A stretch of 45,812 nt of DNA from Phycisphaeraceae bacterium. Its GTDB lineage: Bacteria; Planctomycetota; Phycisphaerae; Phycisphaerales; Phycisphaeraceae. Below the pieces are notes generated by a model. It was not told the DNA's origin. It saw only the letters and a list, made by a program, of their open reading frames with translations, and searched no databases. A program made the translations under genes and the position numbers. The stretch lies in the NCBI GenBank assembly GCA_020831765.1, contig JAFIFY010000154.1, forward strand, positions 1-45,812, written 5' to 3'. Of the stretch, positions 3,122 through 30,562 are shown piece after piece (within the stretch, counting starts at the first letter, position 1; the number at the start of each line of letters is the position of its first letter).

Positions 3122-3139
3122 AGCGCCAGCGGTGGAAGG

Positions 3140-3967: not shown

Positions 3968-3971
3968 ACCG

Positions 3972-4721: not shown

Positions 4722-4786
4722 GGCGGAAGACTGCCCCTGATATGGCCGGGCGGGCGATCGGTCGAATTGGACGGTCCGGCGGGTGG

Positions 4787-7700: not shown

Positions 7701-7999
7701 AGGTGCAGGAGATTCAGCCCCATCTTCCTGGCCGACCACTTGAAGCGGGTCAGAAACGCCGCCAGCAGGTTGAGGATCAGCAGGCCGCCGATGATGTAGC
7801 CGCCGGGCAGCGGGAGCTGCAGATAGTGAAAATCACCGACGACGAAAAGACTCTGGAAGTATTCCTTCTGGACCAGCCAGAGGCTTTCGTGACGCTGCGC
7901 CAGCGTGCCGCTGAAGACCAGCAGCATCGAGAACGCCAGCAGCGCCACCGTCAGCCGCACGGAGGCCAATCCAGCCAAAACTGCCCTAATTGAAAGCAT
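4787..7999 (-). CDS. ccsBA: fused cytochrome c biogenesis protein (ResB-ResC/CcsBA type)
   Basis: System II cytochrome c synthetase that exports haem and attaches it to apocytochrome CXXCH motifs outside the membrane. The N-terminal ResB-like half has four hydrophobic helices around a large external domain (residues 1-370). A linker and helix follow near 410-440, then a second external domain opening with FAKIPVKHDGRVKPIET. The C-terminal ResC/CcsA half holds the haem-handling motif WGRFWGWDPKENGA and conserved helices with TTHVLTI and LHARWGG. The 1070-residue fusion with the 'DGRVKP' motif is the form known from Bacteroidetes, Epsilonproteobacteria and Planctomycetes. ATG 7999 lies two bases after the upstream stop, suggesting translational coupling. 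Confidence 0.92.
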   Translation of the reverse strand: MLSIRAVLAGLASVRLTVALLAFSMLLVFSGTLAQRHESLWLVQKEYFQSLFVVGDFHYLQLPLPGGYIIGGLLILNLLAAFLTRFKWSARKMGLNLLHLGILVLLVGELITGLRALETQMVLDEGTGSSWTHDVHTPELAVIDPTRDTDHEVVLDASLLRQGRLIRDQRLPIDLRIEQWFDNAFVQDPLGRRVLHEQPRAIEDISRPGALVTIMHEGRAIQTETLWFNLLQPGAEPRPVRLSLPEGDRILFIDLRPRRYYHPYRIHLHNFVHERYHGTNIPKRFASDIQLIDPERDTDRRMIIEMNHPLRYRGKTFFQASFANDDRTSILQVVENPVWTAPYIGCLLVALGMTWHFLLKLRGFLSRRGRTAAPVSTGRPAAEVSNAAGSALPPPHPLDVPAQPLGDLRPERRGRTGLLIGAALALVVIALSWWSGRLPAPEGFDLQNFAKIPVKHDGRVKPIETVARAHAVHMTHRRSIPYEEGRVGAVEWYLRMIAPRQAEPRTLEKHELLPAVRAFLADVSAQRLHPALVLETQLIPDEHRDQIMEFLLHSPDRFDPTPEDEKRIEFLAATLRPQLLAFVMASLDRRPESDAPIFRIDHQEIRGLIGAADERQKHFSFDELRPGLSQIYVSGFRAANLPRERRTLFDRKAMELYAQVMRYATIVTRQDILPIAPMAGVDEWSMTHDAPADHPSAEAWRTLARTFESGDHEAFNQEVRRYLNWLAQTPATASDSSLRELGRVNLEATFNRLDPFQWTMVLYVLAFLLGVFSWLGWSGPLRNLAVGVALVALIYHTTGLGLRVYIHGKPPVTSLYSSAVFIGWVSVLLGMILERFSRNGIALVASAVAGIGSLIVAQSLSSGDDFEAVRAVLNTPFWLTTHVLTITIGYGAMFVAGILGIIYLFGSVSTPLISHQLGLTLQRMIYGVICFAALFSFVGTLLGGIWADQSWGRFWGWDPKENGALLIVVLCAIILHARWGGMIADRGIAMLAILGNIITAWSWFGVNLMGVGLHSYGFTDSGAAALKVFALSQLGFLAIGLIPRQHWCSGIRTAALRKAEVAGKAPEVGP

Positions 8000-8001
8000 G
8001 C

Positions 8002-9255
8002 TCAGGGAACCTCTTCGAGTCGTTCATCCGTGCCGGCCGGAAGCCGGGCAATCAAGTCGTCAAGCAGTTGATCGTAGTCGTCCATGGCGTTCAAGGTCGG
8101 TTCTGCGGGCCCGCGAATGACGACCATCAGCAAGGCATCGGCAACGGGAAGCAAGGTGGTGGTCCAGTGGGTCGCGCCGTGGGATGATGATTCATCGGTT
8201 TCGATGATGAGCTGGGCCAGCTCGACCGGTGCGCCGTTACGCTCAAGAATCCGGCTCCGCACCCGGCCGGTCCGTTCAAACTCGGCGATGCGGATTTCTT
8301 CGGCCAGTTCCATCGCCGTGGCCTCACCCGGCGAGATCAACATCAACCCGATGGTCAGTTCAACCATCGGGGCCGATTCAGCGGTCCATGCCCGGAGAAT
8401 GGCCGGGTAAGGCGGCGCTTTACCGCGCCAACCCTCGGGCGTTTCCACCCCGGCGACCATATCCAGAACCCATCGCGGAATCCGGTCCGGATCGACCAGT
8501 CGATCCCCGGTCATCGCCTCGGGCCGCTCATCCCGGATTCGCATGGCCAAGAGATATTGCTCCAGCACCGGAACCTGGCTCCGAACAAGCTCATCATCAC
8601 CGAGGATCTTGAGAAACCATGTCCAGTTGGCGTAATTCACCTGAGCCGCCAACACGCGGCGCTCCGGCTCAAGCCCCTCTTCGGCCGGGCCGGGCAGGTC
8701 GTAGATTCTCACCTGCGCCTGGGGGTGGTCCAGCATGCGAGTGTAGCGGGCCACGGCATCTTCCGGTGGCGAGCCTCGGAAGCCCAGATCATCGCGCCGC
8801 CATCGGGCAATATCGCTGCGCGGATCACCTGTGTAGCCCTCGAAGGCGATCAGGCTGACCGCGGCCGACTGCTCATCATCCTTGATGCGCCAACGCACCA
8901 CACCCATTGCACCGGGTGAGCCCTCGCGATCGCGAACCCAGTGCCCAGGCGTATCGGCTTCGAGCACGGGCCGTGAAGTGGCAACCGCATCCCGAGCCTG
9001 ACCATCGAGCAGAAACCGGGCGACCATGCGAAGGCGGTCGATTTCCTGCTCATCGCCGGAGTGAACTCGGACAGAAGACTCCTCTGACCCGCACCCCGGC
9101 GGCAGCAGCATGGCCAACGCAAGGACACCGATCCACCGCCAGCGTTGGCACGCCGGGACGGGGAGGAATGACAAGCGGGACAATTTCCAGAAACTCAAGC
9201 CGGTCATATTCAGGGTCGAGTCAAACGGTGGGTCGGGCATATTAGCACGCCTCAT
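8002..9255 (-). CDS. putative exported lipoprotein coupled to ccsBA
   Basis: Unknown function. After a basic N-terminus, a hydrophobic stretch (WIGVLALAMLLPPGC) ends in Cys at about residue 55, which suggests a type II signal, although Pro at -2 and -3 is not a standard lipobox. The body is soluble, with NYANWTWFLKILGDDELV followed by LLAMRIRDE. Similar Trp/Phe-rich segments followed by a 'VR-F' strand occur in planctomycete proteins beside c-type cytochrome genes (recalled pattern, not searched). The stop is two bases before the ccsBA start, so the two genes very probably form one operon and the protein may assist cytochrome maturation. ATG 9255, 9240 and 9207 are all possible; 9240 has GAGG upstream. 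Confidence 0.7.
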   Translation of the reverse strand: MRRANMPDPPFDSTLNMTGLSFWKLSRLSFLPVPACQRWRWIGVLALAMLLPPGCGSEESSVRVHSGDEQEIDRLRMVARFLLDGQARDAVATSRPVLEADTPGHWVRDREGSPGAMGVVRWRIKDDEQSAAVSLIAFEGYTGDPRSDIARWRRDDLGFRGSPPEDAVARYTRMLDHPQAQVRIYDLPGPAEEGLEPERRVLAAQVNYANWTWFLKILGDDELVRSQVPVLEQYLLAMRIRDERPEAMTGDRLVDPDRIPRWVLDMVAGVETPEGWRGKAPPYPAILRAWTAESAPMVELTIGLMLISPGEATAMELAEEIRIAEFERTGRVRSRILERNGAPVELAQLIIETDESSSHGATHWTTTLLPVADALLMVVIRGPAEPTLNAMDDYDQLLDDLIARLPAGTDERLEEVP

Positions 9256-9595
9256 CGGTCGCGGCAGGCGTTGGCCAATCGGCAGGCGTTCGCGCCGGTC
9301 CGCAATCGGATGCTCAGCGCCCGGAGACGATCCGATCCAGCCGGCCCATGGCCGCGATTCACCGCCAACCCGTATTCATCCATGTTAGTCTTTTATTCTA
9401 TTCAGCGCCGAAAGTACGGTCTTGGGATCATGTCGGGGCGAAATCGTTACGAAACTTGTCTGTAGCGAGCCATTCTTTGATTAACGCTTCGCTTAGTGGA
9501 TACAATCCGATGATGCCCGCTTGCACACACCAGCGCATTCGACTGGTTTCATTCGTCCAGGATATCCGACCCTTTGAAGCATCGAGGAAAGTGTC
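9256..9595. promoter_or_regulatory. divergent intergenic region between the ccsBA operon and korAB
   Basis: This 340-base gap separates the minus-strand lipoprotein/ccsBA run from plus-strand korAB and must hold promoters for both. Its middle (about 9380-9520) is clearly more AT-rich than the flanking genes. For korAB a good sigma-70-like promoter is visible and listed separately. For the minus strand only a TAGAAT-like -10 at 9400-9395 is seen, with no good -35. No gene of convincing composition lies inside. Confidence 0.5.
9477..9506 (+). promoter_or_regulatory. sigma-70-like promoter for korAB
   Basis: TTGATT at 9477-9482 (-35) and TACAAT at 9501-9506 (-10, five of six consensus bases) are separated by 18 bases. 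Transcription would start near 9513 and leave a leader of about 80 bases before the korA GTG at 9596. It is the best consensus match in the divergent region. Confidence 0.55.
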
Positions 9596-11530
9596 GTGTC
9601 GATGAGTACATCCGCCAAGCCCACGCACCCGACCCGCGCTGCCGTTGTTCGCTTCGCCGGTGACTCGGGCGACGGCATGCAGCTTGCCGGAACACAATTC
9701 ACCGACACTTCGGCCGTGTTCGGCAACGATGTGGCCACGCTGCCGGACTTTCCCGCCGAAATTCGCGCGCCGGCCGGAACCGTCGCCGGGGTATCCGGCT
9801 TTCAGATCAACTTCGCCTCGACCGACATTCACACGCCCGGCGACGAGGTGGATGTGCTGATCGCCATGAATCCGGCGGCCTTCAAAGCGCACATCGAGGA
9901 TGTGCGGCCGGGCGGCATCGTCGTGGTCAACGAAGATGAGTTCACCAAGATCAACCTGCGGAAAGCCGCCTATGCCGACGGCTATGACCCGCTGGATGAT
10001 GAGCGGTACACCCAGCGCTTCAAGATCGTTCGCGTGCCGATCACCCGGCTCAACACCGAGGAACTTTCCAGCACCGGGCTGGGGGCCAAGGATGTGGGGC
10101 GCTGCCGCAACATGTGGGCGCTGGGGCTGATCTACTGGCTTTACGACCGGCCGCTGGATACCACGATCGCCTACCTCGAAGACTACTTCGGCAAGAAGAA
10201 GAAAATGCCGCAGGTGGCCGAGGCGAATGTCAAGGCTTTGCGCGCCGGCTACTACTTCGGCGAGACGGCCGAGTTGTTTCCCGCCCGTTTCCAGGTGCCC
10301 CGCGCCAAGGCCGAAAAGGGCCGATATCGCAAGATCACCGGCAACGAGGCCGCCGCCATGGGCCTCATCACCGCCGCGCACCTGGCCGACAAGTGCCTGA
10401 TCTATTGCAGCTACCCCATCACGCCGGCCAGTGACATTCTCCACTCGCTCTCGGCGCTCAAGCATTACGGCGTCAAGACATTCCAGGCCGAGGATGAAAT
10501 CGCCGCGGTCTGCGCTGCGATCGGCGTTTCCTTCACCGGCCAGCTTGGTGTCACCGGCACCTCCGGCCCCGGCCTCTGCCTCAAGGCCGAGGCCATCAAT
10601 CTCGCCATCATGGCCGAGCTGCCCCTGGTGGTCATCAACGTGCAGCGCGGCGGGCCCTCCACCGGCCTGCCCACCAAGACCGAGCAATCGGACCTGCTCC
10701 AGGCGCTTTACGGACGCAACGGCGATTCGCCACTCGTGGTGCTGGCGCCCAAGTCACCGGCGGATTGCTTTGACATCTGCATCGAAGCGGCCCGGATCGC
10801 CATGCAACACACGGTGCCGGTCATCGTCCTTTCCGATGGCTACCTGGCCAACGGCGCTGAACCCTGGCGCTTGCCCGATCCCCAAGCCATGGAACCGATC
10901 CGCGTGGAGCACCCGACCGATCCTGAAACCTACCGGCCCTACCGGCGAAGCGAAGACCTCTCGCGCCCCTGGGCCATTCCCGGAACACCGGGGCTCGAAC
11001 ACCGCCTGGGCGGCCTTGAGAAAGAACATCTGACCGGCAACGTCAGCTATGACGCCGACAATCACCAGCGCATGACCTGGATCCGCAAGCAGAAGGTGGA
11101 GAACATCGCGGCCCAGGTGCCGGACCTCGAGCCCATCGGCAGCCCTTCGGGCGATCTGCTGATCATCGGCTGGGGTGGGACGTATGGCTCGATCATGACC
11201 GCGGTCGAACGCGCTGGCGAAGAGGGCAAGTCGGTCGGCGCGGTTCATCTGCGCCATCTGAACCCCATGCCCGGCAACCTCGGCCAGATCATCAAGCGAT
11301 ACAGGAAGGTGCTGGTGCCGGAGTTGAACACCGGCCAGTTGCGAACGCTCATCCGCTCGCGGTTCCTGATCGATGCCCGGGGATTGAACAAGATTCAGGG
11401 CAAGCCGTTTCTGGTGGATGAACTGATGGATGCCATCAATCTGATGCTCGACGACCGCTGGGGCGATCGCGAATCGCTCTCACCGACCGAGCATCATGTC
11501 ACCGCCGTGGAGCCGCTGTCGATGTATTGA
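9596..11530 (+). CDS. korA: 2-oxoglutarate:ferredoxin oxidoreductase, alpha subunit (gamma-alpha fusion)
   Basis: Large subunit of the CoA-dependent 2-oxoacid:ferredoxin oxidoreductase that converts 2-oxoglutarate to succinyl-CoA and reduces ferredoxin, reversibly. Residues 1-200 are the gamma domain (FAGDSGDGMQLAGTQF, then EIRAPAGTVAGVSGFQ). From about 245 the alpha pyrimidine-binding domain follows (GNEAAAMGLITAA, CSYPITPASDIL, ITGTSGPGLCLKAEA-like core, VINVQRGGPSTGLPT). The C-terminal domain has IIGWGGTYGSI and VLVPELNTGQL. This two-subunit form, without a separate delta ferredoxin subunit, is known from Mycobacterium and other aerobes. GTG 9596 is preferred because AGGA lies seven bases upstream; ATG 9602 is the alternative. 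korB follows closely, forming an operon. Confidence 0.93.
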   Translation: MSMSTSAKPTHPTRAAVVRFAGDSGDGMQLAGTQFTDTSAVFGNDVATLPDFPAEIRAPAGTVAGVSGFQINFASTDIHTPGDEVDVLIAMNPAAFKAHIEDVRPGGIVVVNEDEFTKINLRKAAYADGYDPLDDERYTQRFKIVRVPITRLNTEELSSTGLGAKDVGRCRNMWALGLIYWLYDRPLDTTIAYLEDYFGKKKKMPQVAEANVKALRAGYYFGETAELFPARFQVPRAKAEKGRYRKITGNEAAAMGLITAAHLADKCLIYCSYPITPASDILHSLSALKHYGVKTFQAEDEIAAVCAAIGVSFTGQLGVTGTSGPGLCLKAEAINLAIMAELPLVVINVQRGGPSTGLPTKTEQSDLLQALYGRNGDSPLVVLAPKSPADCFDICIEAARIAMQHTVPVIVLSDGYLANGAEPWRLPDPQAMEPIRVEHPTDPETYRPYRRSEDLSRPWAIPGTPGLEHRLGGLEKEHLTGNVSYDADNHQRMTWIRKQKVENIAAQVPDLEPIGSPSGDLLIIGWGGTYGSIMTAVERAGEEGKSVGAVHLRHLNPMPGNLGQIIKRYRKVLVPELNTGQLRTLIRSRFLIDARGLNKIQGKPFLVDELMDAINLMLDDRWGDRESLSPTEHHVTAVEPLSMY

Positions 11531-11622
11531 TCGCGGCCACAGTGCCCGCCCGAGTATTCGCCGGGTTCACGCCGAGCCGGCCGGAGAAAGCCGACCGTAA
11601 GCCAATCGCCAAGGATTTCACG

Positions 11623-12642
11623 ATGACCGCCTCGAACGCCGTCTCCATCCTGAATGCCAAGGATTTCGCAACCTCGAATGATGTCCGCTGGTGCCCCGGT
11701 TGCGGGGACTATGCCATCCTCAACCAGATGCGCAAGGTCTGCGCGGCCATCGGGGCGCGGCGGGAGAACACCGTCTTCGTCTCGGGGATCGGCTGCTCCA
11801 GCCGCTTCCCCTACTACATGGGCACCTACGGCTTCCACTCGATCCATGGCCGCGCCCCCGCGGTCGCCACGGGTGTCAAGCTGGCCAACCCCGAACTCGA
11901 TGTCTGGGTGGTTACCGGAGATGGCGATGGGCTTTCGATCGGCGGCAACCATCTGATGCATGTGCTGCGGCGAAATGTGAACCTCAAGATTCTCTTGTTC
12001 AACAACCGCATCTATGGCCTGACCAAAGGCCAATATTCCCCGACCAGCGAAGAAGGCAAGAAGACCAAGTCCAGTCCGATGGGCTCGATCGACCTGCCGC
12101 TTTCACCGCTTTCGATCGCCGTGGCCGCCGAGGCCAGCTTCGTGGCCCGCACGGTGGATGTCGATCGGGATCTCAACCGCGTGCTGACCGAAGCGGCCAA
12201 TCACCAGGGCTCGGCCTTCGTTGAAATCTACCAGGACTGCAACGTTTTCAACCACAAGGCCTTCGACTACGCCACCGACAAGGACGCCAAGCTCGACAAC
12301 CTGCTCTATCTTGAACACGGCAAGCCCATGATCTTCGGCAAGCAGCGGGACAAGGGCATTCGGCTCAACGGCAGCCGCAAGCCGGAGGTGGTCACCCTCG
12401 GGCCGGGCGTTCGTGAGGATGATCTTCTGTTCCACGATGAAAGTGATGAGAGCATGGCCTTCCTGCTCTCGCGCCTGCGCCACACCGATGGCTTCCCCGA
12501 GCCGATGGGCATCTACTACCGCGTCAAGGACGATTGCTACGAACGCCTGGTCGAACAGCAGATCGCCACCGCCCGATCCGCCCGCGGCCCGGGTACGCTC
12601 GAAGCCCTGTTCGACGACGGCAACACGTATGAAGTGCCGTAA
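11623..12642 (+). CDS. korB: 2-oxoglutarate:ferredoxin oxidoreductase, beta subunit
   Basis: Thiamine-diphosphate and 4Fe-4S subunit partnering KorA. Cysteines expected to hold the cluster are seen in RWCPGCGDYAI, GIGCSSRFPYYM and YQDCNVFNHKAF. The TPP/Mg motif is VTGDGDGLSIGGNHLMHVLRR with FNNRIYGLTKGQYSP. Length is 339 residues. ATG 11623 is chosen because AAGGA precedes it by seven bases and the family start (SNDVRWCPGCGDY) lies close by. A TTG overlapping the korA stop would add 32 unusual residues. The C-terminal 60 residues form the usual domain ending in a variable tail. Together with KorA it makes a complete heterotetrameric enzyme. Confidence 0.93.
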   Translation: MTASNAVSILNAKDFATSNDVRWCPGCGDYAILNQMRKVCAAIGARRENTVFVSGIGCSSRFPYYMGTYGFHSIHGRAPAVATGVKLANPELDVWVVTGDGDGLSIGGNHLMHVLRRNVNLKILLFNNRIYGLTKGQYSPTSEEGKKTKSSPMGSIDLPLSPLSIAVAAEASFVARTVDVDRDLNRVLTEAANHQGSAFVEIYQDCNVFNHKAFDYATDKDAKLDNLLYLEHGKPMIFGKQRDKGIRLNGSRKPEVVTLGPGVREDDLLFHDESDESMAFLLSRLRHTDGFPEPMGIYYRVKDDCYERLVEQQIATARSARGPGTLEALFDDGNTYEVP

Positions 12643-19726: not shown

Positions 19727-22282
19727 ATGGACCCAGTAAGTTTGTCGGCTCTCTGTCGCCCAAGGTCGCTGCCCATCGCTGGAGCGATGATCCTTGTCGC
19801 ATCGCTGGTAATCATCGCCGGTGCGGCCTCAGCAGCCGTCACGCCGGCGGTCAGCGGCGGCTCCATCGACGACCCCAATGCCTGGGCACCCCACCAGAAG
19901 GCGCTGACAACCGAGGGCGAGGGGTTTCTCGTATGGGAATCCAATCGCACGGGGAACTGGCGGATTTTCTTTCAAAATCTTGATGGATCGGGAGTTAAGC
20001 AAATATCCTCAGATGAGGAAGGCATCGAACACGCCGCCCCGCACATCAGCCCGGATGGCCGGCATGTGGCGTACTTGGCCTACCGGGGCAACGACAACGC
20101 CTATAACCGAAGGAATAACGGGAATCGCGCCCAGCTCAGGCTGATGCGACTCGACGGCGGCGAATCCCGGGTGCTCGCCGAGCATGCCCGGGCGTATTTC
20201 GAGAATCGGGCGGCGGTCTGGCTGGATGACCGGAACCTGGTCTTCATCGATCACGAGGGCTACACCACGCGCCTTGATATCCAGTCCGGCTCGACCCGTC
20301 GCATCTCACACCAGGGCCGCGATACCTTCGGCTACCTGCCGGATCCGACCCTGCGATTCGCCACGACCGGCTTTCCGAATTTCGCCACGTTCGACAAAGA
20401 ATCCGGCCGAATCCAGACGCGCGACACGCTCAGGGGCTGCCAGCCGTACTTTTCACGGGACGGCCGCTGGGGCTATTGGATCAGTGGCGCCGGCGGCCCG
20501 ATCCGACGGTTCGATCTGCAATCCGGGGCACAGACCAACATCCTCGAGAAGGATGATCCACGTCTGCCCCGGGGGCGGGCGTATCTGTACTTTCCCATGG
20601 TGTCACCGTGTCAACGGCTGCTGGCGTTTTCCGCATCGGCCAATCAGCATGACCATTTCCGGGGCAACTACGACATCTTCATCGCGCCGATCGATCCCCA
20701 GACGCTGATGCTGACCGGCGCGCCGGTCCGGCACACCTTCTCCGATTCAACCGATCGCTATCCGGATGTGTTTCTGGCTGACTACCCCCTGGGCAGACAT
20801 GTGGTCAAAGCGCCACATCGGCTGGAGTTCGCCACGCCCGATGGCCAGCACGCGAGCTGGGAATTCAGCGACGGGCTTACCCTTCGCGGCGCCCGCGTGA
20901 CACGTGTTTTCATCACCCCGCAACGGTATGTCATCGAGGCCAGGCAGGGCGAACGCACCTTGCGCGGCGTGGTCGAGGTCTTGCCCGCTTCGCCGCCGAA
21001 GATCGAAGCAGCGGTGCTCTCCAACGATCGAACCATCAGCATCCACTTCAACGAGCCAGTCACCGTGGCCCCTCGCAGCCGGGCCACGCTGGAATCGGGC
21101 ATCGGCATCGAAGCGATGATCGTGGAAGCCGATGGTCGGCGTTTGGACCTTAAACTGAGCAGGCCGTTAAGAGCAACCGATACGCTCACGATTGAGGGTA
21201 TCACCGACCGCGCCTGGCGCCCCAATGCGCTGCCACGCACGGAGCTTGGCATCGAGCCGGTGACCTGGCCCGTGACTCGGGACGGCCTGGTCTTTCTCTG
21301 GCAACACGCCAGCGCGGCCAACCTCGCGCCGGACACCCGCGGCGATGGACAGCGATCCTTTGAGATCGATCGCGGCGGCCAAGCGGTCTTCGACGCCGTG
21401 GGACGGCTGCTCCTCCAGGGCGGCCATGCCGATTTCCGCGATGCCGGAGCCATCATCTCCGAATCGATCCGGCGATCCAACGCGTTTTCGATCGAGTTGA
21501 CGTTCCGCGCCGCCAATCGCACGGCACGCGGACCGGCACGCATCATCACACTTTCCAATGGCGCATCGGATCGCAACTTCACCATCGGCCAGGAACGCGA
21601 TCAACTGGTCATGCGGCTGCGAACGACCTCGACCAACAGCAATGGAATGCCCGATATCCGCCTCGGGCAGGTCACGCCCGGCGTCGATCAGCACCTGCTG
21701 GTCACCTGGCGTGATGGTGAATTGAACGCCTGGCTCGATGGCGAGCATGTCCAGCGTGTCTCCCGCAACGGCACCCTGGCCAACTGGGCTGACTATGCCC
21801 TGCGCCTTGGCGATGAACTCAACGGCGACCGTGCCTGGCCGGGATGGATCGATCGGATCGCGATTCACAGCCGCGCGATGTCGAGCGATGAGGCGAACAT
21901 CGCCTTCGTCGCATCCCGGGCTGATCGATCGCGCCTGCCCGAGCCCGACCGCATCATCATTCAGGCCCGTGTGCGCGCGGTGTCCGATCAGCCGACGCTT
22001 GAACGGATTCAGCCGTATCGCGAAGCATTGCGCCTGGATGAAGTGGAGGTCGAGCGTGTCATCGACGGCCGGTTGACCGCCCAGCGCCTCCGCATCGCGC
22101 GATGGGCCATTCTCGATGGCCAGACCCTTGACCGGCCGCGCATCGGTCAGCGTCTGACGTTGGCCATCGAGCCGTTCGAGGCCCATACGCAACTGATCGC
22201 AACCTACCTTCAGGACACGTTGGAGGATGACTTTGATGTGCCTCGATTCGTGGTGATCGCGCCGGATGCGGGTAACCCATGA
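19727..22282 (+). CDS. secreted PD40-propeller/PKD/Ig-like/LamG multidomain protein
   Basis: Large exported protein that probably binds carbohydrate or protein outside the cell. After a signal-type helix (about residues 16-36, ending ASA) comes a TolB/PD40-like propeller, with blades such as WESNRTGNWRIFFQNLDG, HISPDGRHVAYLAY and VSPCQRLLAFSAS (about 55-345). A PKD-like domain (WEFSDGLTLRGARVTRVF, near 375-430) follows, then an SbsA/Ig-like domain (PPKIEAAVLSNDRTISIHF, 425-500). A LamG/concanavalin-like domain covers about 540-735 (LLVTWRDGELNAWLDGEHV). The last 105 residues form a module that seems to recur in the AlgJ-like protein at 23886. It is followed by algI after 111 bases, suggesting a joint role in polymer acetylation. 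A TAGAAT at 19715 lies just before the ATG. Confidence 0.82.
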   Translation: MDPVSLSALCRPRSLPIAGAMILVASLVIIAGAASAAVTPAVSGGSIDDPNAWAPHQKALTTEGEGFLVWESNRTGNWRIFFQNLDGSGVKQISSDEEGIEHAAPHISPDGRHVAYLAYRGNDNAYNRRNNGNRAQLRLMRLDGGESRVLAEHARAYFENRAAVWLDDRNLVFIDHEGYTTRLDIQSGSTRRISHQGRDTFGYLPDPTLRFATTGFPNFATFDKESGRIQTRDTLRGCQPYFSRDGRWGYWISGAGGPIRRFDLQSGAQTNILEKDDPRLPRGRAYLYFPMVSPCQRLLAFSASANQHDHFRGNYDIFIAPIDPQTLMLTGAPVRHTFSDSTDRYPDVFLADYPLGRHVVKAPHRLEFATPDGQHASWEFSDGLTLRGARVTRVFITPQRYVIEARQGERTLRGVVEVLPASPPKIEAAVLSNDRTISIHFNEPVTVAPRSRATLESGIGIEAMIVEADGRRLDLKLSRPLRATDTLTIEGITDRAWRPNALPRTELGIEPVTWPVTRDGLVFLWQHASAANLAPDTRGDGQRSFEIDRGGQAVFDAVGRLLLQGGHADFRDAGAIISESIRRSNAFSIELTFRAANRTARGPARIITLSNGASDRNFTIGQERDQLVMRLRTTSTNSNGMPDIRLGQVTPGVDQHLLVTWRDGELNAWLDGEHVQRVSRNGTLANWADYALRLGDELNGDRAWPGWIDRIAIHSRAMSSDEANIAFVASRADRSRLPEPDRIIIQARVRAVSDQPTLERIQPYREALRLDEVEVERVIDGRLTAQRLRIARWAILDGQTLDRPRIGQRLTLAIEPFEAHTQLIATYLQDTLEDDFDVPRFVVIAPDAGNP

Positions 22283-22393
22283 CCGCGGGCGGCCCAAGCC
22301 GGCGAATGACCGCGTCTTAGCGCTTCGCCATGCCACCACCACGGGCGATGAGCCCCGCCATACGCCACCAACGGCAAGCCCGGCCTTCACGCC

Positions 22394-23860
22394 ATGGTCT
22401 TCAGCTCGCAGCTTTTTCTGTTCTACTTTCTGCCGCTGGCGTTGGCGCTTTACTACATCGTTCCCGGGCGCGGCAAGCACCTGATGCTCACGGTCCTGAG
22501 CTATGGCTTCTATGGCTGGGCCAATCCGCTGTTCATCTGGCTGCTTCTGTTCAGCACCACGGTGGATTACATCTGCGGGCTGATCATCTCCCAGCGATTC
22601 GGCCGAGGCCGATTCAGCCAACCCATCGAATTGCTTCAGCGCGGCGGAAGCAGAACCCGTGCCCAGCGCACCGCCCTGATCGTCTCGCTGGTCACCAACC
22701 TCGCCCTGCTGGGCTTCTTCAAATACTTCAACCTGCTGGCCGACAGTTACAACCAGATGGCCAGCATCCTGGCCGGCAGCGCCTATACATGGGACACCTT
22801 CATCCGCATCACGCTGCCGCTGGGGATCAGCTTCTACACCTTCCAATCGATGAGCTACTCGATCGACGTCTATCGCGGCGATGCCCGCGCGATCCGCAAC
22901 TACATCGATTTCGCATGTTATGTCTCGATGTTCCCGCAGCTTGTGGCCGGCCCGATCATCCGGTTCTCCGAGGTGGATCAGCAGCTTCGCCATCGCTTCC
23001 ACACGCTGGACAAATTCGCCCGGGGCGTGGCGATGTTCTCCTGCGGTCTGGCCAAGAAGGTGCTGATCGCCAATCCCTGCGGGTGGGTGGCCGACCAATG
23101 CTTCAACAGCGATCAGATCGGCACGCTGGATGCCTGGTACGGCGTCATCGCCTATTCATTCCAGATTTACTATGACTTTTCGGGTTATTCGGACATGGCC
23201 ATCGGCCTGGGGCTGATGCTTGGATTCGTCTTTCCGAAGAACTTCGACAGCCCGTACAAGTCCAAGTCGATCACTGAATTCTGGCAGCGCTGGCACCTGT
23301 CGCTTTCATCCTGGCTGCGCGATTATCTCTATGTTCCGCTGGGCGGCAATCGCAAGGGCAACTTCCGAACCTATTTCAACCTCTTCCTCGTGATGCTGCT
23401 GGGCGGCCTGTGGCACGGGGCGACAAGCTGGAACTTCGTCATCTGGGGCGCGTTCCACGGCATCCTGCTGGCGATCGAACGCGCCGCCGGCGGCAAGGAT
23501 TCGCTCTATCGATTCCTCCCCGCGCCGCTGCGCGTGGGCGTGACCTATGTGCTGGTGCTGATCAGTTGGGTCTTTTTCCGGGCCGAGGGGCTTGATCGGG
23601 CGTTGGATTACCTGGCCTCGATGTTCGCCCTGCGACAGGTCACTGCCCATGCCGAAGTGGCCGCGGCCAACATCTTCCAACCCTACTACGTGGCTATGAT
23701 CCTCTTAGCGGCCGTGATCGCCTGGACCTGCCCGCAAGCCTGGCAGATCACCCGCAAGCTCACGCCGATCCGCGCTGCCTGGTGCCTGCTGCTGCTGGTC
23801 CTGGGCATTCTTGTTCTCTATACCCAGTCTTTCAATCCGTTCATTTACTTCATCTTCTAA
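22394..23860 (+). CDS. algI: MBOAT O-acyltransferase, AlgI family
   Basis: Integral membrane acyltransferase that passes acetyl groups from a cytoplasmic donor across the inner membrane to partners that acetylate an exported polysaccharide. It begins MVFSSQLFLFYFLPLALALYY, the classic AlgI start, and has about eleven hydrophobic segments. The MBOAT core is clear: SMSYSIDVYRGD, QLVAGPIIRF, YSDMAIGLGLMLGF and FWQRWHLSLSSWLRDYLYVP. The invariant histidines are H341 (GGLWHGATSWNF) and H355 (GAFHG). Length is 488 residues. Many AlgI relatives acetylate polymers other than alginate, and no alginate polymerase genes are present, so the substrate is open. The next gene starts 25 bases downstream. Confidence 0.92.
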   Translation: MVFSSQLFLFYFLPLALALYYIVPGRGKHLMLTVLSYGFYGWANPLFIWLLLFSTTVDYICGLIISQRFGRGRFSQPIELLQRGGSRTRAQRTALIVSLVTNLALLGFFKYFNLLADSYNQMASILAGSAYTWDTFIRITLPLGISFYTFQSMSYSIDVYRGDARAIRNYIDFACYVSMFPQLVAGPIIRFSEVDQQLRHRFHTLDKFARGVAMFSCGLAKKVLIANPCGWVADQCFNSDQIGTLDAWYGVIAYSFQIYYDFSGYSDMAIGLGLMLGFVFPKNFDSPYKSKSITEFWQRWHLSLSSWLRDYLYVPLGGNRKGNFRTYFNLFLVMLLGGLWHGATSWNFVIWGAFHGILLAIERAAGGKDSLYRFLPAPLRVGVTYVLVLISWVFFRAEGLDRALDYLASMFALRQVTAHAEVAAANIFQPYYVAMILLAAVIAWTCPQAWQITRKLTPIRAAWCLLLLVLGILVLYTQSFNPFIYFIF

Positions 23861-23885
23861 ACCCGATGAATCAACCCCGAAAGCC

Positions 23886-25625
23886 ATGACGCACCCACGG
23901 CTCAACCAGAATCGCGAAGACCAGGCCCATCAGGAACTGGGCATCACCTCCATTTCCCGACCGATGGCGTGGCTGCTGACCCTGGCGTTTCTACTTATCC
24001 TGATCCTGCCCACGACGATCCAGACGATTCACGAAGTGCTCGTGAAGAACGTGCGGCCCGGCGTTTTCCAGATCGCCCAGACACCGCTCACCGCCACGGA
24101 CCTGAAGAATCTGGAAACCAATCTCGAAAACCAATCGATCGTGCAGGAAACGCTACTGCCGTGGATTCAACCGCTGTTTCTGGCGGTGGGCGCGGCGGGC
24201 GAGAAGGTGATCCCCGGCCGTGACGACTGGCTGTTCTTTGAGCGCGATGTCAGCCACCTGACCGGATCGGGCTTCATGCAGCCGTCGGTGATGCTGGCCC
24301 GCCGCCGCGCAGGCGATCGCTCGGTGGAAGCGGTGCAGCCCGATTCGATCGAGGCGATCGTGGATTTCCGCGATCAACTGGCCAAGCGCGGCATCGAGCT
24401 GGTCCTGCTGCCCACACCGGTCAAGCCGGAGGTGCATCCCGAGCGGCTTTCGGCGCGGCTCGATCCGGACGTCGGCGTGCTGGCCAATCCATCCATGGCC
24501 GCGTGGTTCAAGGCCCTGGAAGCGGAGGGGATTCATGCCTTTGATCTACATGAACTGATGGTCCAGATCAAGCGAGCCTCGTCCGAGCCGCTCTATCTTC
24601 GCCAGGACACCCACTGGACACCGCGGACCGTCGAGCGTGTGGCCGACCATGTCGCCGATTGGATCGAGCGGAACCATGAGGACATGTTCTTTGAGTTCGG
24701 CGCTGAGTATGCGAGCGAACCGAGGGAAGTGGTGAATCACGGTGATATCTTCGACATGCTGGCCCTGGACGAACGTCGCCGTGGCCGCTATCAGCCAGAG
24801 CGCTTCGAGATTCGCCGCATCACGCCCGCGACCGATGATGATGCCGATGATCAGCGCAACGATGACCCGATCCCTTCGCCCGAGGGCCGAAGCATCGTCG
24901 TGCGCGGCAGGATTGTCGAGGCCGTTCGGCCACCTTCGCCCGGCTCCGTGCCGTATCCCGATGCGGTCACCGCCACGCTGCTCACCGATGTGCAGCCGTC
25001 GGAAGCGTTCGGAACCGCCCTGCCGGAAGGTCGCATGGTGGTCTACGCGATGGGCATGAGTCGCAATCGATGGACCGCCGCCGCCGAGTGGCAACCCGGG
25101 CGCACCATCGAGATACGGCTTCGCCCCTGGGCCGATGTGCGACAGGCTTACGGCGCGATCAACCGGTTCGACCTGGTCGAGAACGAAGATGCCATGTTCG
25201 AACTGCCCCTGTTCTGGGCCGAACCGGTCGGGCAGCCCGACGATGAATCGGCGTCCGAAGCCGCGCCGATCGATCAATGGCGGCCGGACACCCGGAGCCC
25301 GATCCTTCTATTGGGCGACAGCTTCACGAATATCTTCTCGCGGAAGGCCATGGGCTGGGGCGACAGTGCCGGGCTGGCCGAGCAACTGGCCTATGAACTG
25401 GCCTTGCCGCTGGATGTGATCGCGATCAACGGCGGCGGCGCGTTGGCCAGTCGCCAGGCGCTTGCCGCGGACCTGGCACGCGGCGAAGATCGACTTGCGG
25501 GCAAGAGACTGGTCATCTGGCAGTTCGCCACGCGCGAGCTTAGCCAGGGCGACTGGCGATTGCTGAACATCAGAGGTGCTCAAGCTCAGCGCGGCGAGGA
25601 CGAAGACACAGGAGAAACCCCTTGA
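23886..25625 (+). CDS. AlgJ/AlgX-like SGNH acetyltransferase with inserted module
   Basis: Membrane-anchored, periplasmic SGNH-hydrolase-like protein of the AlgJ/AlgX family, expected to work with AlgI in O-acetylation of an exported polymer. One transmembrane segment (about residues 29-52, WLLTLAFLLILIL) precedes the external domain. Catalytic residues are visible: D241 and H243 in QDTHW, and S479 in GDSF. Between them, residues about 335-455 form an insert (IVVRGRIVEAV to MFELPLFWAE) that is absent from the second AlgJ-like protein but resembles the C-terminus of the propeller protein at 19727. ATG 23886 is chosen because the open frame upstream lies inside algI. Its stop overlaps the next TTG start by four bases (TTGA). 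Confidence 0.87.
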   Translation: MTHPRLNQNREDQAHQELGITSISRPMAWLLTLAFLLILILPTTIQTIHEVLVKNVRPGVFQIAQTPLTATDLKNLETNLENQSIVQETLLPWIQPLFLAVGAAGEKVIPGRDDWLFFERDVSHLTGSGFMQPSVMLARRRAGDRSVEAVQPDSIEAIVDFRDQLAKRGIELVLLPTPVKPEVHPERLSARLDPDVGVLANPSMAAWFKALEAEGIHAFDLHELMVQIKRASSEPLYLRQDTHWTPRTVERVADHVADWIERNHEDMFFEFGAEYASEPREVVNHGDIFDMLALDERRRGRYQPERFEIRRITPATDDDADDQRNDDPIPSPEGRSIVVRGRIVEAVRPPSPGSVPYPDAVTATLLTDVQPSEAFGTALPEGRMVVYAMGMSRNRWTAAAEWQPGRTIEIRLRPWADVRQAYGAINRFDLVENEDAMFELPLFWAEPVGQPDDESASEAAPIDQWRPDTRSPILLLGDSFTNIFSRKAMGWGDSAGLAEQLAYELALPLDVIAINGGGALASRQALAADLARGEDRLAGKRLVIWQFATRELSQGDWRLLNIRGAQAQRGEDEDTGETP

Positions 25626-26779
25626 AAACTGAAACCACCCTGATCGGGGCGCATCGATGCCCGACGATCCTCACCGCGAGCCTGGTCATGAGCCTGCTGT
25701 TGGCGGCGTTCGCGCTGATTCCGGCCCGGGCTGAAGAAAAGGGCGCTGGATCGACGACACCCGATGCCCCCGTACCCACGCGACCGACATTGGGCGGAGA
25801 GAAACTCGAAGCGTTTCAGCAGCGTTTGCTCGATGCCGCCACGCAAGCCTCCGAGCGTCGCACCATGACCGTCGTCGGCCGCGAGGGCTGGCTGTTTCTG
25901 AGCGCAGAGCTTCGTCACCTGGGAATCGGCCGTTTCTGGGGCGAGGATGCGATCCGAACCGGGGTGGCGGCGCGTGAAGACCGCCGCGACCCCCTGCCGG
26001 TCATTGTGGATTATCACGAGCAGCTCAAGGAACGGGAAATCGAGTTGATCCTGGTGCCGGTGCCGCCCAAGGCCGCGATCTATCCGGAGAAGTTCGATGA
26101 CTCGGTTCAGTCGGAAGCCGGCGCGCCGCGGCCGCGCGTCGATCCCCACCATCAGGAGTTCTATCAACTGCTCCGACAGCGGGGCGTGAACGTGCTGGAC
26201 CTGACCGAAGTGTTCCTGGCCGCGCGTGATCGCAATCCGGAGATCGAGCTTTACTGCCGGCAGGATACGCACTGGTCGGGCAAGGGCCTTACGCTTGCCG
26301 CGCAGGTCATCGCCCAGCAGGTGGGGGAGCGCCCGTTGATGGAGGATGTCACGACCAACGACCATACGATCGAACATCGAACGATCGAGATTCGCGGCGA
26401 TCTTTATGATGCGGCGGGTTTGCCGGACCTTGAGCGCGAGCAACTTCAGATCGGCCTGATCAACGGGGGTCGGCAACCGATCAGCGACCGGCAAAGCCCC
26501 ATCGTCCTCCTGGGCGACAGTCACCTGCTGGTCTTCCACATCGGGCAGGATATGCACGCCACCGGTGCGGGCCTGGGCGATCATCTGGCCCATCAACTGG
26601 GCTTTCCGCTGGATGTTCTGGGCGTCAGGGGATCGGGCGCAACCGCCAGCCGTCGAAGCCTGACGCTTCGGCGTGACAATCTCGAGGGGAAGAAAATGAT
26701 CATCTGGGTCTTCACCGCCCGAGAGTTCACCGAGGCTCAAAGTTGGCAGACCATCCCCGCCACGCTGCCGCCGATGTAA
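25622..26779 (+). CDS. second AlgJ/AlgX-like SGNH acetyltransferase
   Basis: Paralogue-like partner of the preceding protein, with a cleavable-type signal (about residues 15-37, ending ARA) and no anchor, so probably soluble in the periplasm. It keeps the SGNH core: GREGWLFLSAELRHL, VIVDYHEQLKEREIELILVPVP, D215 and H217 in QDTHW, and S300 in GDSH. The usual GDSF is GDSH here. It has no insert between DTHW and GDS. TTG 25622 starts on the last bases of the previous gene (TTGA) with GGAG about eight bases upstream, so translation is coupled. Two such proteins per AlgI parallels the AlgJ/AlgX division of labour in alginate producers (known), inferred here. Confidence 0.87.
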   Translation: MKTETTLIGAHRCPTILTASLVMSLLLAAFALIPARAEEKGAGSTTPDAPVPTRPTLGGEKLEAFQQRLLDAATQASERRTMTVVGREGWLFLSAELRHLGIGRFWGEDAIRTGVAAREDRRDPLPVIVDYHEQLKEREIELILVPVPPKAAIYPEKFDDSVQSEAGAPRPRVDPHHQEFYQLLRQRGVNVLDLTEVFLAARDRNPEIELYCRQDTHWSGKGLTLAAQVIAQQVGERPLMEDVTTNDHTIEHRTIEIRGDLYDAAGLPDLEREQLQIGLINGGRQPISDRQSPIVLLGDSHLLVFHIGQDMHATGAGLGDHLAHQLGFPLDVLGVRGSGATASRRSLTLRRDNLEGKKMIIWVFTAREFTEAQSWQTIPATLPPM

Positions 26780-28078: not shown

Positions 28079-30562
28079 TCAGCCGCCGGGCGATCGGTAG
28101 GTCATGATGCCGTCTTCGATGGTGGCCGGACTCAGCCGACCGTTGAAATACAGCCGGGTCTGGCCATCACCCACGCGAATGCGAACGCCGCGTACATCGC
28201 CGAAAATCTCGACCTTGCCCGCGCTCCTGCGCACCAGGGCGTGATCGGCGAAGGTCACCTCCGTGCCATCATCCTCGGTCACGGTGATCGGGCCGCGATG
28301 ATGGTCAAAACGAAGATACGCACGGTCATCAACGGACTGATCCGGTCCCCCAATGCGCCACGCGCCCCACATCGTGCCGCCATCGATCCGCTGGAACCGC
28401 GTAATGCCCCCTTCGCCACCCTCGAATGGCTCGTGAAGCGCGGCAAACAGGGTTCCCGATGCCTGGCGTTGGGCGATGATGCTCGCGCCGCCGGTTTCAT
28501 ACGCTCCGGGCGTCTGGGCCGGGTCGGGCCGACGCTCCGGATCATGGTGGTATGTGGGCGTATCGGCCACCAGCACCAGTGTGCCCGGCTCCGCGGCCAT
28601 GCGAAGGTCCACGCCGATCTTGCGATCCCACCACGCTTGGGGCAGCGCACGCTTCTCCGGATCGATATCGGTTCGCTGAACCACGCGCAGATGCCAATCA
28701 CCATCCATCCGCCGGGTGCGTGCCTGGTGGAAGGTATCCAGCAGCTTCTGAGGCTCGGCCAACAGGCGATGCCGCGTCGCCGTCGCCTGGTCGCGTTCCG
28801 AAGCGCCCAGTTCACCGGTCATCGGCCGCGGCTGGGACCATTCTTCATTCAGCTCCGCATGGCCGAGCGGATGCACCAGCCAGCGAAAGGTGCGCTCCTG
28901 ATCGGTCTTTCCGATCAGGCTGAAGATGTCCAGCAGGTACTGATCGGTGAGCATCAGGCCGCGCGTCGCATCAATATCGGGAAAGAGTTCGTGCGAGCGC
29001 GCCGCGACGAACTTGAGTCCATCCTGAAAGTTGTGCCGCACGGTGGTGGCTTCAGTGAACGCCGGCTCGTGTCCATCGACCTTCACACCGGCGTGGGAAA
29101 GCACACTTCGAGACCAGTCGTGGGCGTAGCCGTGAATATGGCGGTTGAGGTAAATCGGCCGGTTGAAGGCGTAGAACCCGGTGATGGCGAAGTTGTCATA
29201 GACGTTGTGGGCGTATGGGTTGGCCAGGCGCATGCCCACGGCCGGTGCCGGTGAATCCCAGTGCCCGCGTCCTTCCTCGGCCCGCAGCATCAGAAAACCG
29301 CGGTGCTGCGCCACCCAGGACGGGGCGCGCGGCGGGCGGGTCTGCGCGGGGTCGATCGGGTCAAGGCCCAGATAAAGCGAAGGCTGATACTTCTCCTGGT
29401 CCGGAGCGCGGTCCAACCCCAGGAAATAATCGAAACCGGCGTCCGGCCATCGCTGGTGGGCAATCTCAAACCAGAGCGGAATCTGCATCTTGGGCGTGAA
29501 GTTGGTATATCCATCCCACTGCGGATGGTTTCCGCGAATCTCACCGCCCCATGCACCGGGTGACAACCAGCGGGCGGTGCCGCCTCGACCATCGGGCATA
29601 TGGCCCTGGATCACCACATCCTGAAAGAGGTTGACCGGCCGAATGGTGGCGGGACCGCCGCGCAGATCGCCGGTGGTCATGCGCGGAATGTGCGGCCGGC
29701 CGGAGTGAAGCTCGACCTTGGGAAAGGCCAGCCAGATCATCGATTCGATGTGACCCCGCATCGTGGCGCCGTGGCGACCTCGATAATTGAAGCCCAGCTC
29801 CGAAAGGCCCAGGTTGTCCAGGGCGATACAGTAAATGAGCATCTCACCGGGCAGCGCGCGCTGCTTATCGACTTCTTCGCCGTAGAAGCCACCGTCGGTC
29901 AGGTATTCATCGAAGTACCAGCGCCACGAGCCGTAATGGTTCCAGGTGCGGCGGATCAGTTCCTCATCGGCCAGCGCCGCGGCCATGATGTTCGCGCTGA
30001 GGATACGGGGAAAGGTGATGTTGGGCAGCCAGTTGTCGATCCGGTGATAGTGGGCGTGATAGCGGCTGTAATTGCGCTCATCGTTGAACACCTCCGGATC
30101 GAACAGTGAATTGCGGAATACCGCGTGCTCGATGTAAGTCCGGAAGAAATCCTCGACCAGCTCGCGCTCTTCTTCGCTGAGCTTGTCATAGAGCAGATCG
30201 TAGCGAAGCACCGTGATCCACTGGGCCGCGCCGCGCGGAACCGGTGAGCGGGCGACCTGCAACAGGCGCGCTTTCTGCCGCTGGCCGGCTTGTTCATCAT
30301 CCTGAACGACATACCGCCAGAGGTCCAGGAGATGGCGCTCCAGCGGAATGGGATCGCCCAGGGTTCGCTCGACGCGGGCCGCATACTCCGGATCATTTTC
30401 CAGCTTGTCGCGCATCGTGGCGATGTCCTTGGCCGTCCACAACACAAATGGACGCTCCGGTGCCTTGCGCTCGCCGGCCATGACCGGCAAAGTGGACCAA
30501 CCCGGGCCCGATGAAAAGACCAGGAACACGATGGAGAGTTTCAGCAGGGTTGAGAGCTTCAA
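28079..30562 (-). CDS. heparinase II/III-like polysaccharide lyase
   Basis: Large exported protein with a signal peptide (about residues 5-30, ending VMAG). The first half is an alpha/alpha barrel-like region (LRYDLLYDKLSEEERE, YHRIDNWLPNITFPRIL). The second half resembles the heparinase II/III beta-sandwich: NPYAHNVYDNFAITGFYAFNRPIY with a conserved His-x-x-Tyr/Asp pattern, then DWSRSVLSHAGVKVDG, like 'RS...HNTV.VDG'. Such lyases cleave uronic-acid polysaccharides by beta-elimination. Which PL family it belongs to cannot be told. The start is TTG 30562 with GGAGGA about ten bases upstream. It lies opposite and 1.3 kb from the acetylation cassette, so it may act on the same polymer (inference). 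Confidence 0.7.
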   Translation of the reverse strand: MKLSTLLKLSIVFLVFSSGPGWSTLPVMAGERKAPERPFVLWTAKDIATMRDKLENDPEYAARVERTLGDPIPLERHLLDLWRYVVQDDEQAGQRQKARLLQVARSPVPRGAAQWITVLRYDLLYDKLSEEERELVEDFFRTYIEHAVFRNSLFDPEVFNDERNYSRYHAHYHRIDNWLPNITFPRILSANIMAAALADEELIRRTWNHYGSWRWYFDEYLTDGGFYGEEVDKQRALPGEMLIYCIALDNLGLSELGFNYRGRHGATMRGHIESMIWLAFPKVELHSGRPHIPRMTTGDLRGGPATIRPVNLFQDVVIQGHMPDGRGGTARWLSPGAWGGEIRGNHPQWDGYTNFTPKMQIPLWFEIAHQRWPDAGFDYFLGLDRAPDQEKYQPSLYLGLDPIDPAQTRPPRAPSWVAQHRGFLMLRAEEGRGHWDSPAPAVGMRLANPYAHNVYDNFAITGFYAFNRPIYLNRHIHGYAHDWSRSVLSHAGVKVDGHEPAFTEATTVRHNFQDGLKFVAARSHELFPDIDATRGLMLTDQYLLDIFSLIGKTDQERTFRWLVHPLGHAELNEEWSQPRPMTGELGASERDQATATRHRLLAEPQKLLDTFHQARTRRMDGDWHLRVVQRTDIDPEKRALPQAWWDRKIGVDLRMAAEPGTLVLVADTPTYHHDPERRPDPAQTPGAYETGGASIIAQRQASGTLFAALHEPFEGGEGGITRFQRIDGGTMWGAWRIGGPDQSVDDRAYLRFDHHRGPITVTEDDGTEVTFADHALVRRSAGKVEIFGDVRGVRIRVGDGQTRLYFNGRLSPATIEDGIMTYRSPGG

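Follow-up and report, generated by a model that had tools for sequence, protein, structure and literature searches.

Judging from their sequences, four adjacent genes of a planctomycete probably direct the acetylation of an extracellular polymer and encode a surface protein of sugar-binding type. One of the acetylation enzymes and the surface protein have in common a domain of about 110 residues, here called the CTD, which is new here and without a Pfam, NCBIfam or PDB sequence match. The reading that we prefer, with somewhat more conviction than doubt, is an envelope O-acetylation relay in which the transferase and the surface protein carry the same docking module.

Gene layout

The window, that is the whole stretch of DNA analysed (45,812 nucleotides; positions 1-45,812 of the forward strand of contig JAFIFY010000154.1, assembly GCA_020831765.1), comes from a Phycisphaeraceae bacterium (Planctomycetota; Phycisphaerae). 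ORF calls place genes A-B-C-D at 19727-26779, all on the plus strand (Table 1), bearing out the original prediction of four co-directional genes, and the last two are joined by a 4-base overlap as it had proposed (C ends at 25625, D starts at 25622 with a TTG codon and AGGAG upstream). Its family assignments also stood: an exported propeller/PKD/LamG protein (A), an AlgI-type MBOAT (B, Pfam MBOAT) and two AlgJ/AlgX-like SGNH proteins (C and D, Pfam ALGX), one anchored (C) and one exported (D). Families were sought in 28 window ORFs, the ORFs at 41067-43262, 43428-44690 and 44923-45660 lying outside the Pfam scan; a 142-aa ORF downstream of D had no family match at all. The G+C content of the cassette is similar to that of the remaining window, and a promoter and terminator scan was too weak to use (3 versus 1.5, s.d. 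1.2, and 10 versus 4.9, s.d. 2.6, in shuffles).

Table 1. Features of the four-gene cassette, in window coordinates
Feature	Position	Strand	Basis
Gene A, exported, 851 aa: signal segment, TolB-like beta-propeller, PKD, LamG and shared OB-like domain	19727..22282	+	Sequence matches, hydropathy
A beta-propeller region, about residues 60-364	19904..20818	+	Profile of window and G001 propellers; TolB matches
A PKD domain, approximate limits	20819..20980	+	Alignment with G001 A; PDB PKD chains by A profile
A LamG/ConA-like domain, residues 580-722	21464..21892	+	Pfam Laminin_G_3, E 8.8e-14
A C-terminal shared domain (CTD)	21935..22276	+	Profile comparison; predicted OB-like
Gene B, MBOAT of AlgI/DltB type, 488 aa	22394..23860	+	Pfam MBOAT PF03062, E 1e-30
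B C-terminal FIYFIF, putative acyl-tyrosine shuttle motif (Tyr485)	23840..23857	+	Motif as in PMC12148441 (excerpts)
Gene C, membrane-anchored (hydropathy) ALGX SGNH protein, 579 aa, CTD inserted ahead of GDS motif	23886..25625	+	Pfam ALGX, E 1.9e-31
C putative catalytic Asp241-x-His243	24606..24614	+	Alignment, motif
C inserted shared domain (CTD)	24876..25235	+	Profile comparison
C GDS, putative catalytic Ser479	25314..25322	+	Alignment, motif
Gene D, exported ALGX SGNH protein, 385 aa	25622..26779	+	Pfam ALGX, E 4.1e-25; hydropathy
D putative catalytic Asp215-x-His217	26264..26272	+	Alignment, motif
D GDS, putative catalytic Ser300	26513..26521	+	Alignment, motif

The MBOAT protein and its SGNH partners

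B is the sole MBOAT found in the draft genome of the window. Its His341, which we take to be the catalytic histidine by analogy with PatA His315, is invariant in the 35 aligned rows covering that position, as is His301. In the first locus set, 34 of 36 MBOAT ORFs have the FxYxxF tail; of the two exceptions one is split by a stop and the other (G001) is cut by a contig end, its missing tail being located on the next contig and also ending in NPFIYFIF. According to excerpts of PMC12148441, a C-terminal hexapeptide of this type serves MBOAT-SGNH transferases as an acyl-tyrosine shuttle. In a quick tree, the cassette MBOATs other than L123 and L124 fall in one clade of 40 rows (SH-aLRT 99).

Both C and D have the DxH and GDS motifs together with residues equivalent to the AlgJ signature P/K/D/H/W, and a sequence search of the PDB with either matched AlgJ and AlgX. 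One N-terminal hydrophobic stretch was found in each of A, C and D, looking cleavable in D and not in C; signal and lipoprotein assignments here and below were made by eye and from hydropathy. C and D form a single ORF in four genomes. A search of viral contigs with C gave 17 stretches, with no relative among them.

The surface protein

A carries domains of carbohydrate-binding type and is predicted to be exported. Besides the LamG domain, Pfam at E 0.01 gave neither a propeller nor a PKD match in the window's own A, and these two assignments come from other comparisons. The propeller matches NCBIfam TolB (E 1.4e-6, 27.5 bits versus a cut-off of 343) and TolB chains in the PDB (best E 5e-5), while the PKD domain is recognised by Pfam in the closest relative (G001 A, 43% identical; E 2.6e-14) and matches collagenase PKD chains in the PDB (E 1.4e-6, two-row profile). 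A contig search with A returned one locus only, a copy of the G001 contig. The structure prediction for whole A is poor (pLDDT 44).

A domain common to A, C and a lipoprotein-like protein

The CTD lies at the C-terminal end of A, as an insertion in C, and in a small lipoprotein-like protein of a second cassette type described below. The domain common to A and C had not been part of the original prediction. Profiles of the LamG-linked and ALGX-linked copies align at 99.2% probability in hhalign (E 1.3e-19), versus at most 2.1% in 100 column shuffles. The lipoprotein-like protein aligns with the CTD at 96.8% (E 3.1e-10; at most 15.5% in 100 shuffles); with smaller sets, the values were 91.2% on all copies, 2.0% on the ALGX-type subset and about 10 bits by hmmsearch, and the match with the ALGX-type CTD rose to 93.2% with larger sets. 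At E 1e-5 we count 57 copies, 28 with LamG, 23 with ALGX and 6 in other contexts.

No significant match of the CTD was found in Pfam (best E 0.022, 22 members) and none at E 1 in NCBIfam (five isolated domains); among PDB sequences the best E was only 1, and a PDB sequence search with the lipoprotein-like protein gave no useful match. The AF2 model of the CTD, from an alignment of three rows, has a pLDDT of 72 and a pTM of 0.66, the five models ranging from 72 to 45. Its best structural match has a Z of 7.2 (agrin NtA, PriB), a value that may mean only a common arrangement, and Foldseek gave no match at E 0.001 or better. Many of the 50 structure matches listed are presumably OB-fold proteins, and the fold of the modelled CTD is possibly OB.

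The CTD was found in at least 7 of 397 genomes of the class and at least 17 of 392 genomes of the phylum, both samples including the window's genome; these counts are lower bounds because few candidates were scored per genome (2, 5 and 11 by search) and only best matches were listed. An MBOAT is encoded in the window's genome and in all 25 other known CTD-bearing genomes, against a base rate of 106 in 258 class genomes, which is a class-only figure, 16 of the 25 falling outside the class.

Recurrence across planctomycetes

A profile of D was used to pick 20 loci. In 18 of them an MBOAT gene is the next neighbour, and in 15 of the 18 that MBOAT has a propeller or LamG gene no more than one gene away. 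Among 40 further MBOAT loci of the class, used as controls, none showed such a neighbour; a more distant propeller there might have escaped notice, and some of the stretches are short. These controls were hand-picked from the upper part of the MBOAT match list, leaving out loci already collected, with their neighbours not yet known. Most genomes are drafts and several cassettes are cut by contig ends. The same genes occur together in other families as well, so the arrangement of the window is not due to chance. The original prediction had held the propeller/LamG protein to be a true partner and named a lack of its conservation beside algI as what would speak against this; the neighbourhood proved to be conserved.

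The prediction had also pointed to a survey of the four-gene order. The gene content does recur and is constant, but the exact order is only one of several (A-B-C-D, A-D-B-C, B-C-D-A and A..D-B-C), and a second cassette type is commoner in the D-picked set (12 of 15). This type consists of a bare propeller, an MBOAT and one ALGX protein, with a small (about 150-aa) lipoprotein-like gene between propeller and MBOAT; the profiles that label its propeller and lipoprotein-like protein were trained on ten and twelve, respectively, of the loci they label. The training propellers are 46-86% identical to L135, in which Pfam finds PD40. The propeller of A is weakly related to them (E 7e-7 with G001 A and 3e-4 with the window's A; no match with G028 A), a similarity that could be the generic one among TolB propellers. 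A point against the preferred reading is that, in G033, the gene after the A-like gene has a sub-threshold transglutaminase match.

Comparison with known acetylation systems

The window holds an MBOAT with a conserved histidine and an FxYxxF tail, and neighbouring extracytoplasmic SGNH proteins with a predicted Ser-His-Asp triad, features used to recognise MBOAT-SGNH systems. As in the Pseudomonas AlgI-AlgJ-AlgF-AlgX system, one MBOAT accompanies an anchored and an exported ALGX/SGNH protein, both of which keep the DxH, the GDS-type triad and the AlgJ signature residues; proteins of AlgI, AlgJ and AlgX type are thus present, a single ALGX family covering the last two types. However, AlgX has a C-terminal carbohydrate-binding module (PMC4148444, in part), for which D leaves no room, its ALGX match covering residues 84-346 and the protein ending about 40 residues later. 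Further differences are the OB-like domain in C, the gene for a propeller/PKD/LamG protein in the cassette, and the fusion of C and D in some relatives. Among the 28 window ORFs scanned there is no alginate polymerase, export or other alginate gene, in agreement with the original prediction, and no match to an AlgF-named family, the latter being meaningful only if the library holds an AlgF model. Since D has no room for the module, we class the system as MBOAT-SGNH of AlgI/ALGX type rather than alginate acetylation, as had been anticipated.

The same enzyme types as B, C and D are found in cellulose acetylation, as the WssF/H/I/G proteins are homologous to AlgX/I/J/F (excerpts of PMC10641220), but no cellulose synthase match was seen among the 28 ORFs. 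PatA-PatB and MBOAT-SGNH systems in general likewise combine an MBOAT bearing a C-terminal hexapeptide with its tyrosine and an SGNH partner with Ser-His-Asp; the partners here are ALGX proteins (PF16822), unlike those of the DUF459/PatB family, so named in excerpts of PMC9487903. By sequence, DltB is the closest solved MBOAT to B (PDB, E 6.7e-28), although its score of 154.7 falls well short of the DltB equivalog cut-off (375). In the partial sources on DltB-DltD, DltX bears the tyrosine motif and the pathway employs a carrier protein, whereas B has the motif on its own tail.

Proposed mechanism and alternatives

The gene set, its motifs, the shared domain and the recurrence are read directly from the DNA. 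By analogy with characterised MBOAT-SGNH systems, B would take acetyl from cytoplasmic acetyl-CoA and load it onto Tyr485 of FIYFIF via the conserved histidine, probably His341; the acetyl would then cross the membrane to the serine of C (anchored), D (exported) or both, to be passed on to an exported polymer. Beside the window cassette, no gene for polymer synthesis or export was seen. What we say of the polymer, the ligand of the CTD and the role of A is inferred: the CTD may be a docking module through which the transferase and the propeller/LamG proteins meet at one target, most likely the polymer that receives the acetyl groups.

A tentative extension, which we find possible though doubtful, is that the MBOAT-ALGX relay writes O-acetyl marks on the polymer and that propeller/PKD/LamG proteins act as readers, held there by the same OB-type module that the acetyltransferase or the relay lipoprotein uses. 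One writer would then serve many readers, as in G534 (a draft, 81% complete), which has nine CTD copies, seven of them in LamG proteins, and a single MBOAT.

The CTD could instead be an assembly adaptor, a counterpart of AlgF that holds MBOAT, SGNH and propeller proteins together without binding the polymer. The second cassette type, where the CTD takes the form of the lipoprotein-like protein whose gene separates those of propeller and MBOAT, is consistent with this, as is the MBOAT adjoining 19 of the 25 ALGX-CTD ORFs (all loci read), but the copies in G534 are more than an adaptor needs, and AlgF is described, in excerpts, as two tandem beta-sandwich domains, whereas the CTD model, of middling confidence, is a single OB-like barrel; we regard the adaptor as unlikely. 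It is improbable that A and its CTD-bearing relatives are themselves the acceptors, the relay acetylating these surface (glyco)proteins with the CTD as recognition tag: the many CTD proteins per single MBOAT in G534, a second A-like gene in the window's genome (L057) with no MBOAT alongside, and the encoding of A together with its would-be modifier would suit this, but C, the enzyme, bears the same domain, and characterised MBOAT-SGNH systems act, in the partial sources, on polymers.

Strict alginate or acetylated-cellulose machinery with its polymerase elsewhere in the genome would agree with the AlgI/AlgJ/AlgX-type matches of B, C and D, yet we give it very little credence, given the missing room in D, the lack of alginate-specific genes among the 28 scanned ORFs and the lack of any among 20 hand-chosen proteins from other loci. 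Finally, an accidental placement of A beside an ordinary acetylation trio, to which one might refer the three D-picked MBOAT loci with no adjoining propeller/LamG gene (G136, G185 and G083) and the 15 of 28 LamG-CTD ORFs with no MBOAT within 6 kb on the same strand (some at contig ends), both of which also weigh against the preferred reading, is rejected with near certainty in view of the 15/18 versus 0/40 counts, the domain shared with C and the varied orders of the same content.

Implications

By title or start of abstract, no paper on a planctomycete version of this system appeared among the open-licence PubMed Central matches listed; one match, PMC12419801, names planctomycetes, MBOAT and AlgI once each. 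The shared module, which may be an AlgF counterpart, connects an acetyltransferase, in a way that can be tested, with a group of propeller/LamG surface proteins that have no known role. To our knowledge, the surface polymers of planctomycetes and their modification have been little studied, and the gene set, the putative catalytic residues and the marker domain would allow a phylum-wide search for an acetylated polymer.

Gene content of the cassette

The window spans an entire contig (G000:C77, 45812 bases) of a draft genome of 4.7 Mb. The four co-directional genes of the original prediction, A to D, were confirmed together with their coordinates, as was the 4-base overlap between C and D, where AGGAG precedes the TTG start of D. 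A signal segment, a TolB-like propeller, a PKD domain and a LamG domain were assigned to A; LamG is the sole domain detected by Pfam in the window's own protein, and the propeller and PKD were assigned through its relative and through profile matches. B is borne out as an MBOAT protein, with DltB as nearest solved relative, and C and D as ALGX proteins, with AlgJ and AlgX as nearest solved relatives. Both C and D retain the Asp-x-His and GDS motifs, along with the residues matching the AlgJ signature P, K, D, H, W. The neighboring genes are mostly of housekeeping type (Sua5, an RRM protein, BtpA, IPP transferase, topoisomerase and others). The scan of 28 window ORFs, several of them without any match, found neither a glycosyltransferase match nor AlgF or alginate genes. 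Just past the cassette's downstream neighbors lies an ORF of 827 aa for which Pfam gave no match at E 0.01.

Coordinates of the features (G000, the window's own genome)
Locus	Positions	Strand	Feature
Window	19727-26779	+	Genes A-D
Window	25622-25625	+	Overlap, TTG start of D to end of C
Window	28079-30562	-	827-aa ORF
L161 (G136:C239)	2-2934		CTD gene
L123 (G207:C113)	6572-12078		MBOAT, PD40 propeller
L124 (G105:C185)	6128-11497		MBOAT, PD40 propeller
L057 (G000:C26)	9199-11234		Propeller-LamG-CTD gene
L052 (G000:C6)	2328-7704		Lone ALGX-CTD gene

Conservation of the propeller/LamG neighbor

A search of the class sample (397 genomes) with the profile of gene D, at E below 1e-20 and with matches in the own genome left out, retrieved 20 loci in 19 genomes. 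An MBOAT gene lies next door in 18 of them; the other two are a lone gene (G099) and a contig that begins inside the gene (G413). The predicted conservation of the propeller/LamG neighbor holds: such a gene lies at most one gene from the MBOAT in 15 of the 18 loci (12 propellers and 3 LamG proteins with the shared domain CTD), versus none of 40 control loci, which are other MBOAT loci of the class hand-picked from the match list before their neighbors were seen. The loci of G136, G185 and G083 lack the partner; in G136 a CTD gene is present on a different contig. No LamG, CTD, small protein of the second cassette type (see below) or match to either propeller profile was found in the 40 control loci, and ALGX was present in two. 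In cassettes resembling that of the window (first type), the predicted four-gene order A-B-C-D recurs and other orders occur as well, and C and D form a single ORF in G203, G617, G481 and G774.

Gene order in first-type cassettes
Order	Genomes
A-B-C-D	Window; G001 (two contigs); G079 (D split over two frames); G203
A-D-B-C	G028
B-C-D-A	G531
A..D-B-C	G725
A..B-C-D	G442

Across all loci read, an MBOAT within 6 kb on the same strand is lacking for 15 of the 28 LamG-CTD ORFs and for 6 of the 25 ALGX-CTD ORFs, in some cases owing to a contig end. Thus, LamG-CTD proteins occur both as partners of the cassette and on their own. In three genomes a PA14-match protein (above the Pfam cut-off in G442, under it in G531 and G725) adjoins the LamG-CTD gene, which fits a carbohydrate-rich setting.

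A domain shared by proteins A and C

When A and C were aligned with their counterparts in G001, a relative placed in the same family, and in G028, the C-terminal ~110 residues of A (CTD) proved similar to a segment inserted in C, both in the window and in G001; in G028 the domain sits at the C-terminus of C. Collected at E 1e-5, 57 CTD copies comprise 28 linked to LamG, 23 linked to ALGX and 6 others. The LamG- and ALGX-linked sets align in hhalign at 99.2% (E 1.3e-19), with a maximum of 2.1% in 100 column shuffles. Among the six others, L161 is propeller-like by eye only, with no Pfam match, and adjoins an ORF resembling, by eye, a phage-type integrase; a copy on G000:C160 has a lipoprotein-family match (43.8 bits, far under the 544-bit cut-off), and L192 and L199 both lie beside an MBOAT.

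Comparison of CTD with Pfam (22 members) gave nothing better than E 0.022, with PDB sequences nothing better than E 1, and with NCBIfam (five isolated domains) no match. The AF2 model (three rows; pLDDT 72, pTM 0.66) predicts an OB-like barrel plus a helix. Foldseek returned no match at E 0.001; a second structure comparison placed agrin NtA (TIMP-like) and PriB at the top with Z 7.2, a value that, by the tool's own warning, can mean a common arrangement only.

A second type of cassette, seen in 13 loci (L119, L134-L139, L141-L144, L146, L245) and in families other than the window's, encodes, in this order, a PD40 propeller of ~345 aa (doubled in both L144 and L146), a ~150-aa small protein, an MBOAT and one ALGX. 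The small proteins have an N-terminal hydrophobic stretch and a putative lipobox-like Cys, conserved in at least 90% of 12 aligned. Their profile matches CTD at 96.8% (E 3.1e-10; at most 15.5% in 100 shuffles); with fewer sequences the match was weaker, at 91.2%, and at 2.0% against the ALGX-type subset alone. CTD therefore appears to be the element that both types have in common, joined to LamG and to ALGX in the first and free in the second.

Distribution and phylogeny

CTD occurs in at least 7 of 397 class genomes and at least 17 of 392 phylum genomes, both samples including the window's genome and both counts being lower bounds, with up to 11 candidates scored per genome. All 25 other CTD-bearing genomes known at the time of the search have an MBOAT, the class-wide rate being 106 of 258 genomes in a different sample. 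The window's genome holds one MBOAT, four ALGX and five CTD copies. Its second propeller-LamG-CTD gene (L057), without an MBOAT beside it, is split over two overlapping frames by a frameshift or sequencing error. A lone ALGX-CTD gene (L052) has genes of glycoside hydrolase families 28 and 42 as neighbors; this ALGX and a second lone one (G000:C191) may draw on the genome's single MBOAT. In G534 (81% complete), a single MBOAT stands against nine CTD copies, of which seven belong to LamG proteins; this expansion spreads over many contigs (L194-L196, L253-L257), and some of the proteins carry PKD and one several LamG stretches. L247 and L248 (G582:C30, G637:C22) combine an MBOAT and an ALGX-CTD gene with four more flanking ALGX ORFs on the opposite strand.

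In a quick maximum-likelihood tree of 86 MBOATs, those of both cassette types fall in one 40-row clade (SH-aLRT 99), and the ALGX-paired controls L277 and L288 branch just outside. The MBOATs of L123 and L124, which have a propeller neighbor and no ALGX, fall elsewhere. L123 also encodes a 622-aa fusion of an FGE-sulfatase domain and a histone-deacetylase-like domain, and a gene of similar size lies beside the MBOAT of L124.

Proposed mechanism

B ends in FIYFIF. In PatA, according to the published work, the tyrosine of the C-terminal motif is auto-acetylated and then supplies the SGNH partner, a step its authors extend to other MBOAT systems bearing the motif (PMC12148441). Of the 36 MBOAT ORFs in the first set of loci, 34 end in the motif. 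A contig end truncates one of the remaining two, whose tail on the adjoining contig ends NPFIYFIF, and the other is the front half of a stop-split gene. The motif is not specific to the cassette, since most of the 40 control MBOATs end in it too.

Judged by its sequence features, which agree with those of MBOAT-SGNH systems, the cassette would work like one of them; it is not classed here as alginate machinery, since D leaves no room for the module of AlgX. By analogy with PatA-PatB and AlgIJFX, as described in the cited papers (PMC12148441, PMC10641220, PMC4148444), we infer that acetyl would pass from acetyl-CoA to Tyr485 of B, then to Ser479 of C and/or Ser300 of D, and from this serine to a polymer. 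The main rival for the role of CTD is an AlgF-like adaptor, which is supported by the free form that the operon encodes. Most likely, CTD would dock the transferase and the surface protein at one common target, and the polymer is favored as this target since many CTD-LamG proteins can share a single MBOAT. Among the literature matches listed, none dealt with this system in planctomycetes and, as far as our searches went, both the shared domain and the recurring propeller/LamG partner are new.
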